Origin: Ophiosphaerella korrae
Taxonomy: Eukaryota > Ascomycota > Dothideomycetes > Pleosporales > Phaeosphaeriaceae
Direction: 5' to 3'
DNA: 64,000 bases
NCBI GenBank assembly: GCA_028456385.1
Contig: JALNQF010000092.1
Location: forward strand, 62,001-126,000
Shown: positions 54,407 through 63,800 of the stretch, piece by piece
Position numbering within the stretch: the first letter of the stretch is position 1
Layout: each line of letters begins with the position of its first letter
Translations under genes and position numbers: made by a program
Notes under the pieces: generated by a model
Seen by the model: the letters and a program-made list of their open reading frames with translations, nothing else
Databases searched by the model: none
Told to the model about the DNA's origin: nothing

Positions 54407-55498
54407 TCACTTTCCTCCGAAACTAGTTCCACTGACACCGCCATTGATTATTCCAGCTTGAAATCCCGAGTTCTGATTGCCGAGTGTGACACTAGTTGAA
54501 TGGCTCTGAGGCCTTGCGGCTTTCGCAACAGCTTCTTCTTGTGCCTTAGAGAGCAGCTCATCCAGCAATTTTCGTGACGTATTTAGCGCTTTGCGTTCTT
54601 CTTCAAGTTGCCGCAATGCCTCAGCCTTGTCTTCCTTGTGTACAGCCACTTCCTCGTCATCGGTGCTGGCGTTCATCTCCTCCAGCTTGTTATCCAATAC
54701 TATCAGCTGCTTATCCGCTGTGGTAATAGCACCCTTGGCCTCAGCCTGATTCATAGATATTGTTTGCTTAATCTCTTCTGTGATGTGGCTATTGCGGACG
54801 GAGCTGTATCTATAGGCGGGGTTAGATCGATTTCTACACTGAAGCACTCAGATTAGAGTTATTCACAAGGTCGCTATGCTGACGATCGAGTTAGTGGAGA
54901 GCTTGCAGTTTTGAAGCTGCTCGGACATGGCCTTGATTTGTCCTTGCTTGAAGAATCCCACATTTGCACGATCCTTCCATGCTAATTTTCCATCTTCTGA
55001 GTGCCTAGTCCACCGCTGAAGGTCGGTTCTGAAAAGATCGCATGCTTGCGTGCAGCTGCTGATGGTAGTCTGTAGTGGAAAACAGGGCCTAGGAGAGGAT
55101 CACACAATCCTGAAATGGCCTGCCGAGGTAATCGGGAACCGGATTATTAGTCTGACCGATCCTCGAGTATATAGAGTTGATCGTACATAGCTTTACACTT
55201 AGCCAGTAGTCTGATCAACTTTTCATTCACACAAGATCGTTCTTTACGCCTCCATTTTCCATCACATAGTCTTTGACCCCTCGGCTATATTTGGACCAAG
55301 TGACATCCATTCTCTCTCATCCACGTTTTGGATCAGCTTGAGTGCCGTTTCAACAGAGGTGACATCTTCTGTTAGACGTTTCACGGCTTTTGGTGCGTCT
55401 TTAAGGTTCTGTAGATCGTCGAGAAGAAGTCGTGTAACGTGCAACGCTGGGACTGTGACCCCAACTATACTTGCGGCAATACTGAGGGGATCGGCCAT
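54407..55498 (-). CDS. HeLo-like (STAND N-terminal type) domain protein with C-terminal amyloid-like motif
   Basis: Three exons (55498-55266, 55058-54867, 54809-54407; introns 207 and 57 nt) encode 275 residues, apparently intact. Residues about 1-160 are a helical domain of the fungal STAND N-terminal/HeLo-like type (DPLSIAASIVGVTVPALH, LLLDDLQNLKDAPKAVKRL, NVGFFKQGQIKAMSEQLQ). Residues about 165-245 form an acidic coiled coil (ALRQLEEERKALNTSRKLLD). The C terminus is glycine/asparagine-rich and holds NSGFQAGIING (255-265) and a final TSFGGK. HeLo-like domain plus C-terminal motif is the layout of fungal cell-death effectors such as HET-S and HELLP. The motif is shared with the N terminus of the divergent NLR gene. 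The intron 1 acceptor (CATCAG) was chosen by phase. Confidence 0.72.
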
Positions 55499-55686
55499 TT
55501 GGCAATAGAAGAATATTAAGAGGAGGGTGCAAAGGGTCTGGCTGAAGCGTGGCATGCGGGGTTCAAATATGGATCAAAGAGATTGGTCACCAGCTGATAT
55601 GGCTGTGCAAGCCATCAAGGGCGGATACGAACCACCAGGCTCAGCTCCGCCAACGCATACGCATACTACATTACTGCTACAGCATC
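55499..55686. promoter_or_regulatory. 188-bp shared promoter between effector and NLR genes
   Basis: The starts of the divergent genes are only 188 bp apart, so their upstream regions must overlap. No specific factor site could be identified. Confidence 0.6.
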
Positions 55687-58286
55687 ATGGCATCCGTGAT
55701 ATCTTTCGGCGGCGCGAACTCCGGCTTCGAGGCCGGCATCATCAACGGCCCGGTCAACACCACGTTCCACCTTCCGCTTGGTGAGTTGCGGGAGGATCTG
55801 AACGGCTAGAGACTCCACCACACCCGGCGGCGGTGATCCCCTTCAGTCGCGACACAGACTTCGTCGGGCGAGGGGCGGTACTTGATCAGATCCGCCAGAA
55901 ATGCGCTATACCAGGTTCATGGACCGCACTCGTCAGCCTGGGTGGTGCCGGGTGAGTATGAACGGCTCCGTCGATACCGATTGCTGACTGCGAAGTAGCA
56001 AGTCGCAGCTGGCTATCGAATTTGCATATCGGGCTCGTGCGCGATCGCCCAACATGTGGGTTTTCTGGGTCTACGCAGCTAATGCAGCCCGGTTTGAGCA
56101 GAGCTATCGCGACATTGCAGACTGCGTCAAGATCTCCGGGCGACGTGACCCCAAGGCCAATATATTCAAACTTGTACATGACTGGATGCGGGATAGCAAG
56201 CAGCGGTGGGCACTCATACTCGATAACGTCGATGACGCTCGTTTCTTGCTCGATGGCCAGGATGACGGCCAAGGTCAACCTACCGATTCGCAAGGCGCTT
56301 CCAAGCCGCTCTGAGAATACCTTCCTCAAAGCCAGAGTGGCTCGGTTCTCATAACGTCGCGTAGCAAAGAGGTGGCGTTGAAGCTGGTTGAACAGCAAGA
56401 CATCATTGCTGTGGAACCGATGGACAAGGCGCACGCGCTGGCACTCTTCCAGAAGAAGCTGGGAGCAATGATATTGCCAAACTCGCAGCGGCGCTGGATT
56501 TTATGCCGCTTGCCATTGTTCAACCGGCGGCGTATATTTCCCAAAGAGCGCCTCGATGCTCAGTGAGGCAGTACCTTGAAGACTTTGAAAAGAGCGACAG
56601 CAAGAGAACAAGTCTTCTTGATCACGATGATGGACAGCTCCGCCGAGATGGGCAGGCGAACAACTCCATCATCATTACTTGGCAAATATCCTTCGATTAT
56701 ATCTGTCAGACGCGACCATCAGCGTCAGACCTACTCTCCCTCATGAGCTTTTTTGACCGACAAGGGATCCCAGAGACACTGCTTCGAAATCGAACCGATC
56801 AGAGAGACACCCAAAGTAACACCCAAAGTGATCAAAAAGAGCTTGATAACAGCGACTGGAATGGGGCTGAAGAGGATAGTACATTCCAGTCTAGCGCAAA
56901 CAATGATAAATTTGAAGTTGATGTAGTGGCACTGTGGAACTTCTCCTTCATTTCTATTAATGCTAATGGAACAACCTTTGAAATGCATAGACTAGTTCAG
57001 CTAGCGACGCGGAAGTGGCTTCAAGCCAACGGCAAGTTTAAGCCGTGGAAGCAGCAGTTTATCAGGAATCTTTGCGAAGGGTTTCCAACGGAAGAATACG
57101 AGAACTGGGCAAGATGTCAAGTGCTTTTCACGCACGTGAAGTCAGCTGCGGCGCAGCAGCCAGAGGAACGAGACTTATTAGTAGAGTGGGCCGCACTACT
57201 CTATCGTGCAGCACGGTATGCATGGAAAAGAGGAAGCGTAGCCGATGCTGAAAATTTATCCACGAAGTCCCTAGAAGCGCGGAGGAAGGTATTTGGTCAA
57301 GAGAACAAGGAAACTCTAAGTAGTATGGCGATGGTAGGAATAGCAAGGCAAATTCAGGGGCGGTGGAAGGAGGCGGAAGAGCTGCTTGTGCAAGCGATGG
57401 AGGCGAGGGTGAGGATGCTTGGGGCAGAGCATCCAGACACTCTGATTAGTATGACCTACCTAGCGGCAACGTACAGGATTCAGGGGCGATGCAAAGAGGC
57501 GGAAGAGCTGTTGGAGCAGGTAACAGAAACGAGGACCAGGGTGCTTGGGGTGGGGCACCCGGATACTCTGATTAGTATGACCCACCTAGCGGTAGCGTAC
57601 AAGAGTCATGAGAGGTGGAAGGAAGCAGAAGAACTGTCAGTGCAAGTGATGGAGATGTCCAAGAGGGTGCTTAGGACGGAGCATCCAGAAACACTGGCCA
57701 GCATGCGCAACCTAGGTAGGACGTACTGCAGCCAGGGGAGGTGGAAGGAAGCGGAAGAGCTATTAGTGCAAGTGATGGAGACGTCCAAGAGGGTGCTTGA
57801 GACAGAGCATCCTACCACACTAACTATCCTAGCCGCCCTAGGTGAGATGTACAGGAGGCAGAAGAGGTGTTGGTGCAAATGACAGAGACCTCCAAGAGGG
57901 TGTTTGGGGCGGAGCATCCTACCACATTAGCCATCCTAGGTATCCTAGGCACGGTATATAGAGGTCAGGGGCGGCTAAAGAAATCAGAAGAGGTATTGGT
58001 GCAAGTAATGGAGACGTCTAAGAGGGTGCTTGGGACGGAACATCCTACCACGCTGACTTGCATGGATCAATTAGCGCATACTTGGGAATCTCAGGGCCGC
58101 AAGGAAGATGTTGTGTTGTTGATGAAGGAATGCTTTAGGCTAAAGCTACATTTCTTAGGCGCTCAGCATCATAGTACTGTGGCATCGCTCCAAGCTCTAG
58201 AAAAGTGGGAATCGGGTAAATTTATGAAAAAAGCTAAGCTACGCTTCAAGGCCTGGAAACATGTATTTGACAAGTTTGGTAGGTAA
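55687..58286 (+). pseudogene. NB-ARC-TPR NLR with N-terminal amyloid-like motif, broken in three places
   Basis: Exon 1 (55687-55780) encodes SFGGANSGFEAGIINGPV, including the motif at residues 11-21. Next comes ETPPHPAAVIPFSRDTDFVG, a P-loop rebuilt across intron 55952-55998 (LVSLGGAGKSQLAIEF), RWALILDNVDDARFLL (Walker B), SGSVLITSRS, MPLAIVQPAAYISQRAP, and 42-residue TPR repeats from about 57284 (EHPDTL...KEAEEL type, seven to eight units). Lesions: TGA at about 56312 after ASKPL, a frameshift near 56470 between KKLG and DIAKLAAALDFMP, and a deletion of about 17 bp with frameshift near 57856 in the fifth repeat. Intron 1 would be only 29 nt (55781-55809) if the conserved block is kept. Architecture parallels PNT1-type NLRs. 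Confidence 0.8.
57284..58190 (+). repeat. TPR-coding tandem repeats, 126-bp units
   Basis: About seven units of 126 bp of the type RVLGTEHPTTL...LG.Y..QGRWKEAEELLVQVMETSK. Units are similar but more diverged than the WD40 array at 43 kb. The fifth unit lacks about 17 bp. Confidence 0.82.
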
Positions 58287-60814: not shown

Positions 60815-63800
60815 CTACTCTACGTTGCTCCCATAGGTATCTCCGACCGAAACGAGGAGAGGTAGCTCGGCTTGTAGTGAAGAGTAAGAGGAATCAAGGA
60901 TTTCGTTCAAGTTTGACGCGGCTTGCTTGCACTCTTCCCGCCACCATCGCCTCAGGCCTGGATTGATCCGTAGTACTTCATTCCGTTCACGGGTACCAAG
61001 GGTCCTCAGACGCCGGTTGGGCGATGTATCGCTCCAGAGGCCCTACAATTCGCAAAAGTGAAATTAGAATATTCACTACCACAACTTGCCCTTGCTTTAG
61101 AGCGCACGGAATAAAACGATTTAAAAAAACCGAATCCATCGAAATCCCCAAGTGCCATATACCATTCTTCGTTGGTACCGCTGTGTAGCCTCTTTTTTTC
61201 AGCATCTTCCAATAGAGGTACAACTTCACTATGACCATTATCATTTGCAAACTTGATAGCGAATTTGAATCCCTTTTTACGTCGCACATTACCTTTCGCT
61301 CCAGCATTCAGAAGGGACTGGACTGTATCCAAGCGGCCATGTTCAGCCGCGCCTTTGATGACATATCGGCCCTCAAGAGCTGACGGCTCTGCATTGACCA
61401 AGGCGCCTTTTTCGAGGAGAAGAGCGACTAATATGATATTTCCGGATATAGCAGCACCCTGTAAAGCAGTGACTCCTCCGTAGACTGCCGGCTCTGCATT
61501 AACCGCTGCGCCATTTGCAAGTAGTAATTCTACAAGCCCCTTGTTTCCTGCGGATGCGGCAGCCTGGAGTGCCGTCCGACCAAACCGTGGTGCCGGATCC
61601 GCATTGATATTAGCCCCGCGATGGAAGAGCATTTTCACTTGTGTGATGTGTCCGCAAGCCGCTGCAAGTTGAATTGGTGTCATGGGCTGCGACTCGTCGT
61701 CATCCCCCGGGATTCCAGGCTCGGCCCACATATGTTCAAGGACTATATTGCGGTGAGGCTCCAGAAAACGGGCTAGGATATCATCCTCGCCATTCTGGAT
61801 GATGCAATGTAGTGCCCAGCTTGCTTTTCCCCTTGGCCGATTGACGGGAGCACCAGCATCCAGGAGTCGGTGGCACATTACGCGCCTTTCTTCTTCTTCT
61901 TCTTCTTCTTCTTCTTCTTCTTCTTCTCCATCCAACGCACTGCAGGCTGCCTCGAGAGTCGCCAGCCCCTTTACAGATGCAGGTGGAGCGGAGACATTAG
62001 CTCCGCGTTCTAACAATAATTCTGCCACTTCACAGCCCCCCTCTGCATCGAGAGCTGCTTGCAATGCGGTGCGTCCATTGATCGGATAGGCTGGAGCGTC
62101 TATGTTTTCATTGTATGAGAGGAGAAGCTCAACCATTTTCAGCTCTGCCCAGCCAACTGCCGCTTGAAGAGGAGTCTGCATTAGGTACAGTGTGTTGACG
62201 TCTGCTCCGCGCGCTAGCAGATAGATTACCGATATTATATCTCCGTGTCCAGCCACTTCGACTAAGGCTCCAAAGCATTGGTGATCAAGGTTCACCTCGG
62301 ATTCCACAAATAGTGGCAAGAGCCGGCAGGAGTGTCGACCAGCGACGACTCGTTCGGGAATCCCAGGCACGTCAACGGTCGCCCCAAAGCTTATCAAGAG
62401 CTGACACATCTCAAATGGCTCTCTTAAATCCATGGCAGTCTCTAGAGGTCTCTCGCGTAAGGTATCACCGTCTGGGCTCACTCCGGATTGTAGCAGTACT
62501 ACTATAGCTACTGAGTGATTTAGTCGGATTGATTCGTGGAGTGTCTGCTCAAGTTGGTGCGTGGCGATTCGTTCTTCATGGTTTAAAGTTCTTGATTCGA
62601 ATAACCGACTCCAGAATCTTTTACAGAAAAGGACCGGATGGTGGGGGCCTTGATATTAAGAAAAAGTTACACTTGTTCAGTGAAATGATGATCAGTGATC
62701 CACTTTAGGAAGGTATCTGTACGATAATTGTCTAGGATATTGTTAGATGAGAAATAAGCCCCCAGCCCAAGGAGGAACCAGACTCCGGAAGAGGAGATCG
62801 AGCGTGAATTCAGGAGATAGCCCAGTTGTTTAGACAGTGTGTTTGGCTCTTTCTCTAGCACAAGATTCTCCAGTCTCGATACAACCTGAGGAAAATTCTC
62901 CTGTACATGTTTTCCTGTTGCGGAGCCGAGCAGATTTGTAAGGGCCCGTCGTCCAGCGTCCATGGAGAGGCCATTGAATGTGCTTGTTGGTGCGAATGGA
63001 GAAGACTCTCGCTCAGAATGTGCCTGTGGAGGCATGTGTGCTGATTGCGTGGTTAGCGTCTTGGGAATTGCTACAGATAAGAGAGGAGACACACCTCGTT
63101 GCTCAAGAAGGTGCTGAACTTGAAAGATCGGCAAGTTGGGTCATCCACCGTTTAACCCCGCCGGTTACGACGAAATTAGATACAGAGAAAGGGTTCCCAT
63201 CTCGTCCCACTAGACTTGAGTCCGGAGTGTCACTGGTGCTGGAGTTCATGCCCCCTTGTCGCCTTCCTCCAGGGGATGTCAGTGGCATCGGCGCAAAGTC
63301 GTCGTTGCCAGTTCTAGGCAATTCGAATGGAGCAAGAATGGCTGTGGTATGATTATTAGCTCTCGGCTCAAAACGCATTTCAATATCTTACTAATGTTAC
63401 CTTCGAACTCTGAGGGAGTTGGCGTCGGAGGCTGAGGCCCTGGGCTGGCCAATGCCCAGAAAGTACTCTCAAAGTTGAATTGTCTATCAGCTTCAAGCCC
63501 CAATTCCGGATCCGGTATGGAAGGTACCTCAGAGGTCTGTTCAGTCGTTAAGTGCAGAAAAAATGTCTCCAAGGTCCCAATGTCTTCTTCATTCCCCCCA
63601 AGAATACCACTCTGATGCAGATTCGGTTCAGGCGTCAATGCCGGAGGGGTCCGGACGGATATCCTTTTCGGGAATGGATTTGGCATTCCTTCGATCGATC
63701 AGTAGATCGTGTGAGAATGTGGCGTAGGGGTCTTCACCACTTGAGTCTATTTCAGAATGCGCCCTTTTTCCGTAGCGAGCCGTCGCGCGATTGACGCGAT

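Follow-up and report, generated by a model that had tools for sequence, protein, structure and literature searches.

A probable HELLP/PNT1-type amyloid cell-death module with a diverged PP motif, a receptor pseudogene and a transposon-like element in the effector exon of Ophiosphaerella korrae

Do two neighbouring genes that carry nearly the same 11 residues, one at the end and the other at the start of its product, form an amyloid signalling pair, and if so to which motif family do they belong and what is left of them? The question is raised by a locus of the filamentous ascomycete Ophiosphaerella korrae (genome of 63 Mb in 974 contigs) in the stretch of 64,000 nucleotides analysed here (C912:62001-126000, hereafter the window, whose numbering applies wherever no contig is named). 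An effector gene on the minus strand, with its ATG at 55498 and the final base of its stop codon at 54407, diverges from a gene on the plus strand for a nucleotide-binding and oligomerization domain (NOD)-like receptor (NLR), which starts at an ATG at 55687, with 188 bases between the two. The effector ends (see LGNQNSGFQAGIINGGVSGTSFGGK) with NSGFQAGIING followed by GGVSGTSFGGK and the stop codon, the receptor begins with MASVISFGGANSGFEAGIINGPVNTTFHLPL, which contains NSGFEAGIING, and 10 of the 11 motif residues are identical. The locus is very probably a two-gene amyloid cell-death module of the HELLP/PNT1 type, with a diverged subtype of the PP motif, a receptor that has become a pseudogene and, in an exon of the effector gene, an element resembling a miniature inverted-repeat transposable element (MITE). 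Its features are as follows.

54407..55498, minus strand: HeLo-like (PF17111) effector gene of the HELLP family with a MITE-like element inside (from Pfam, homologues and identity to a Podospora protein)
54440..54472, minus strand: C-terminal PP-subtype motif NSGFQAGIING (conserved in this position among effector homologues)
54810..54866, minus strand: 57-nt effector intron, matching the only hellp intron in position and phase
55059..55265, minus strand: 207-nt stretch with nearly all of the 196-bp MITE-like element, in the coding exon
55687..58286, plus strand: NB-ARC/TPR receptor pseudogene, PNT1-type (from Pfam and a paralogue map)
55717..55749, plus strand: N-terminal PP-subtype motif NSGFEAGIING
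55781..55800, plus strand: first intron of the receptor, shortened (from paralogue comparison)
56312..56314, plus strand: in-frame stop in the NB-ARC region of the receptor (from frames and the paralogue map)
56464..56467, plus strand: frame change in the receptor (from frames and the paralogue map)
57846..57858, plus strand: frame change in the TPR region of the receptor (from frames and the paralogue map)

A motif that is short and rich in Gly and Asn invites the suspicion that the common residues are due to chance or low-complexity similarity. However, the two termini align locally with a score of 69, which none of 20,000 shuffles reached (best, 49), and members of the effector family retain the motif at their C terminus, so that this explanation can be considered refuted and the matching termini of two genes 188 bp apart described in the original prediction stand. 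The window receptor has Glu (55729-55731; GFEAG) where the motif core usually has Gln, as does one Stemphylium receptor.

The effector side of the pair is firmly placed. PF17111 (PigL_N), the accession termed HeLo-like in PMC9815663, matches the exon-1 piece at 2e-8, the joined model at 2.5e-19 (70 bits, cut-off 27.2) and all 61 aligned members of the effector family (E up to 1), which bears out the earlier proposal of a HeLo-like effector with a C-terminal motif. There are 278 effector homologues and, among the matches listed (the best 120 of the 278), the top one is 75% identical from end to end. A further search that started from an Achaetomium family member led to a 271-residue protein of Podospora pseudocomata with which the window model has 43% identity over 273 positions. 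This protein matches HELLP of P. anserina in length and in its TFGRRG terminus (PMC7885112), and it was taken as HELLP from the length stated in that source and an end deduced from a primer. The 57-nt intron of the window effector interrupts the codon (L of SIATL) that the only intron of hellp interrupts, and does so after the same base; the hellp position is given in PMC7885112.

On the other strand, the pieces of the receptor match Pfam TPR_12 at 2.7e-60 and, in one piece, NB-ARC at 20.7 bits, just under the 23.5 cut-off; together with the paralogue map this upholds the NB-ARC/TPR receptor with an N-terminal motif proposed from the start. A paralogue on C124 aligns to it in five frame segments, the frame changing at the first intron, at an ordinary second intron, near 56465 and near 57850, with in addition the stop at 56312-56314. 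In the first intron the donor is kept and homologous coding sequence is back after about 20 nt, versus 57-65 nt in five paralogues. This shortening alone is not conclusive because an alternative AG nine bases on would give a 29-nt intron that is in frame. Judged from its frames and its paralogue, the receptor is thus a pseudogene through the stop and two frame changes, barring assembly errors, as the earlier description of a broken receptor had it. The intron donor lies after coding nt 94 in the window and in 5/7 paralogues tried, and the pnt1 intron occupies nt 95-148 (PMC7885112).

Effector homology, intron positions and the common motif therefore point to an amyloid-type pair like HELLP/PNT1, as was first suggested. 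In Podospora anserina, as in the window, a HeLo-like effector (271-280 residues) with a C-terminal motif neighbours an NB-ARC/TPR receptor with an N-terminal motif, and the intron position is the same in both genes (PMC7885112). The window pair differs in its core (NSGFQAGIING versus NSGQQVGVNSG in HELLP), in its receptor pseudogene, in the MITE-like element in the effector exon and in the many further motif receptors of its genome. The CgHELLP/CgSBP/CgPNT1 system of Chaetomium globosum likewise joins a HeLo-like effector to an NB-ARC/TPR receptor through a common PP motif but is a three-gene cluster that includes a lipase-type effector (PMC7885112, PMC5485727); no lipase with the window motif turned up in the genome motif searches. 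By homology to HELLP/PNT1, oligomerization of the receptor would nucleate an amyloid of the motif (PMC7885112, PMC7889193), which would template the effector tail, and the templated effector would relocate to the membrane region and kill the cell. Anatomy, homology, common motif, intron positions and damage are read from the DNA itself, and templating and killing are inferred from work on HELLP/PNT1.

The same adjacent pairing recurs in at least one other fungus. Leptodophora sp. has an effector (ACEPPN_000486) and a motif receptor (ACEPPN_000485) with consecutive locus tags and equal-length contigs. In Pyrenophora seminiperda, an effector and a motif receptor lie on equal-length contigs, a weaker link than that in Leptodophora.

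Several results weigh against reading the locus as a diverged HELLP/PNT1 module. An effector on the same contig could be assigned for just 2/15 receptors found elsewhere, one of them by equal-length contigs alone. The predicted structure of an effector homologue (not the window protein) is all-helical (predicted local distance difference test score, 77) with a low-confidence tail that holds the motif, which fits the mechanism proposed but proves nothing, and it gave no informative PDB match for comparison with the MLKL/HeLo four-helix bundle. Finally, Ses_B, the Pfam model of the PP motif, scores 10.9 bits on the window effector tail versus a cut-off of 23.2, the window pair is absent from the Ses_B matches in the genome at E up to 10, and even with E up to 1 allowed this model matched just 37/61 effectors (best, 5e-4).

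A motif below the Ses_B cut-off would suit a family distinct from PP, HRAM and sigma, which the original prediction held possible. Systems of the latter two types, HET-S/NWD2 (HRAM) and SesA/SesB/HET-eN (sigma), resemble the window pair in having the motif at the receptor N terminus and the effector C terminus (PMC3321046). Judged by eye against that source, however, the window has neither the 21-residue HET-s-type double repeat of HRAM nor, at either terminus, the threefold GxGxQFNxx/GGTQNINT repeats of sigma, and HET-S is not among the Pfam families listed. The PP core is NxGxQxGxN (PMC9815663), and the window NSGFQAGIING aligns ungapped with the HELLP-like NSGQQVGVNSG, its Asn falling one place later and an Ala following the Gln. 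The cores of 143 effectors in a tree, a sample seeded by the window gene and so biased towards its subtype, include intermediates. Of the 34 rows in the HELLP clade, 15 are canonical, 10 place Asn/Tyr one position later, with V/I/L/M following Q, five are QA, two have another residue after Q and two are unclear. The remaining 105 rows, which include the window effector and are not one clade, comprise 65 QA, 14 V/I/L/M, eight with another residue, four other, two canonical and 12 unclear cores, and the four Xylariales rows three canonical cores and one of the QA type.

A profile of the subtype, built from 89 of the tails of the best 120 of 278 effectors, all from other sources, scored 17.5-44.7 bits on all 15 receptor heads tested (18 in all) and 4.4-15.3 bits on six canonical PP segments, while no shuffle among 4,400 scored above 12.3. 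The profile thus splits the motif from the canonical PP of the same genome, which speaks for a separate family, but three of the six canonical segments (12.4, 14.4 and 15.3 bits) lie slightly above the best shuffle, and the motif occupies the same place on HELLP homologues. Taken on these alignments and profiles, the motif belongs to PP as a diverged subtype, with intermediate cores known, and is no new family. A family of its own is very improbable and already partly refuted, and that part of the prediction is not supported in view of the HELLP homology and the hellp/pnt1 intron positions.

Canonical PP does occur in this genome, where Ses_B is above its cut-off at five places (C21:27492, C21:28388, C387, C90:151445 and C198). 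Two of them form a pair (C21:27492-28462) that, like the window pair, consists of a divergent effector and receptor, each here matched by Ses_B over the cut-off. Unlike those of the window pair, its cores are GLQLGHNSG and GLQVGHNSG and its effector is of the HeLo type (PF14479); the receptor has an RPETPP linker and DUF7779. Stops between the pieces of the effector frame may be introns or damage, so that this pair may be damaged as well. Three amyloid-motif loci (C21:9903, 27492/28388 and 41092), of the window subtype and canonical PP, lie within about 32 kb of this contig.

What state is the window effector in? An open model of 275 residues exists, as originally predicted, but it requires that 207 nt, the supposed intron 1, be removed by splicing, and this stretch is essentially a repeated transposon-like element, which the original prediction had missed. 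The family consensus is continuous at the site (SKTTISSCTQ, no gap). Counting itself, the stretch matches 28 places of the genome; 15 of these matches (again with itself) are nearly full length and have 79-100% identity. In an alignment of 14 copies, the window element measures 196 bp, its terminal inverted repeats are TGTGATGGAAAA and TTTTCCACTACA (10/12 positions pair), and 5-bp target-site duplications are perfect in nine copies, have one mismatch in two and are unconvincing in three; GACTA flanks the window copy on either side. On this comparison of copies, most of the supposed first intron comes from a MITE-like insertion into a coding exon. The family to which it belongs, about 196 bp long and with target-site duplications of 5 bp, is spread genome-wide and includes 13 further copies.

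Because the element sits in a coding exon, the effector is either broken or dependent on splicing the element out. The element carries stop codons, which favours a dead module in which the insertion inactivated the effector and the other motif receptors are orphaned or signal to an effector that escaped the searches. However, a GT in its terminal repeat combines with any of four AGs into open models of 265-285 residues that keep the frame, the 275-residue one lacking two residues of the consensus. The exons themselves have no stop and no frameshift, and the model differs at just 4/91 conserved columns (rank 25 among 61 members), which also argues against inactivation. The force of this point is weak, since in simulations an unselected copy at 3% divergence acquired no new substitution stops in 43% of cases, or 3.6% with an assumed indel rate. 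With six private differences in 197 columns of the window element, the intact exons hint only weakly at selection since the insertion.

The rest of the genome bears on the same choice. A motif search at E up to 10 gave 19 matches: the window effector, the head of the window receptor and 17 further receptor-type heads, which makes 18 heads in all. The earlier description of an effector without its trigger is therefore not supported, as the 17 other receptor-type loci with the motif are candidate triggers. Near the motif, 13 of these 17 keep a frame open for 474 codons or more (C722, C261, C534 and C856 do not), with TPR in seven and NACHT/NPHP3, ankyrin or WD40 in six (Pfam). The genome has one near-complete effector of the window family. 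Three further copies, on C124, C386 and C767, are remnants, and a protein on C210 is more distant; the C124 remnant lies directly upstream of a receptor head, its motif cut off. No second C-terminal copy of the motif appeared in the genome motif searches, which score best candidates only.

Eighteen heads versus one near-complete effector, with 13 other loci keeping long frames, would suit a hub, in which splicing removes the element, the effector continues to be produced and many unlinked receptors with two classes of NOD share it, an idea raised for one effector and different NLRs in PMC5485727; NLRs have also been predicted to activate several unlinked executioners (PMC7889193). Against this, the open frames are not all intact (stops in frame separate the repeat blocks of C21:9903, and the loci on C416 and C945 are cut short by the ends of their contigs), splicing of head to body could be modelled for just 4/7 receptor loci tried, and some 30 PF17111 match rows in the genome, several with open frames, were compared by motif searches alone. 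Such an arrangement is possible but somewhat doubtful. The decay of several receptor loci and the three effector remnants fit a dead module, a serious possibility that falls a little short of being probable. Two stop-rich receptor copies (C261:38088 and C856:50285) lie in AT-rich surroundings (G+C content 0.37 and 0.40) and resemble the products of repeat-induced point mutation.

For the HELLP/PNT1-type module of the window, the effector may thus be dead or rescued by splicing. If still made, it could be a common executioner for the 13 open-frame motif receptors and so a hub; if not, the channel may have lost its output. The fullest version, in which a dozen or more NLRs (NB-ARC/TPR, and NACHT with ankyrin or WD) converge on a single HELLP-family executioner, the MITE in its coding exon has become a new, spliced intron and canonical PP signalling in the genome does not cross with the subtype, is unlikely as a whole. 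The many-to-one arrangement of receptors and effector is its unusual part, although a working function for it is inferred. No comparable case was found in the accessible parts of PMC3321046, PMC9815663, PMC5485727, PMC7885112, PMC8086366, PMC7889193, PMC12881547 and PMC12258605 or in literature listings limited to titles and the openings of abstracts.

Two neighbours lie outside the pair. A minus-strand open frame of 549 codons with ankyrin repeats occupies 61006-62655 of the window, and a strong PF17111 match in two pieces without stops lies on the minus strand of the same contig, outside the window (C912:53162-53844).

PP motifs are fungal relatives of the RHIM motif of mammalian necroptosis. 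The QA core is the commonest among the effectors collected outside the HELLP clade (65/105 rows, in a sample biased towards the window gene), and surveys that rely on Ses_B may undercount such receptors because the subtype scores under the Pfam cut-off. With its 18 receptor-type loci and a single near-complete effector, this genome would offer a test of locus-by-locus versus hub wiring (PMC5485727), and it would allow one to ask whether motif subtypes keep signalling channels apart.

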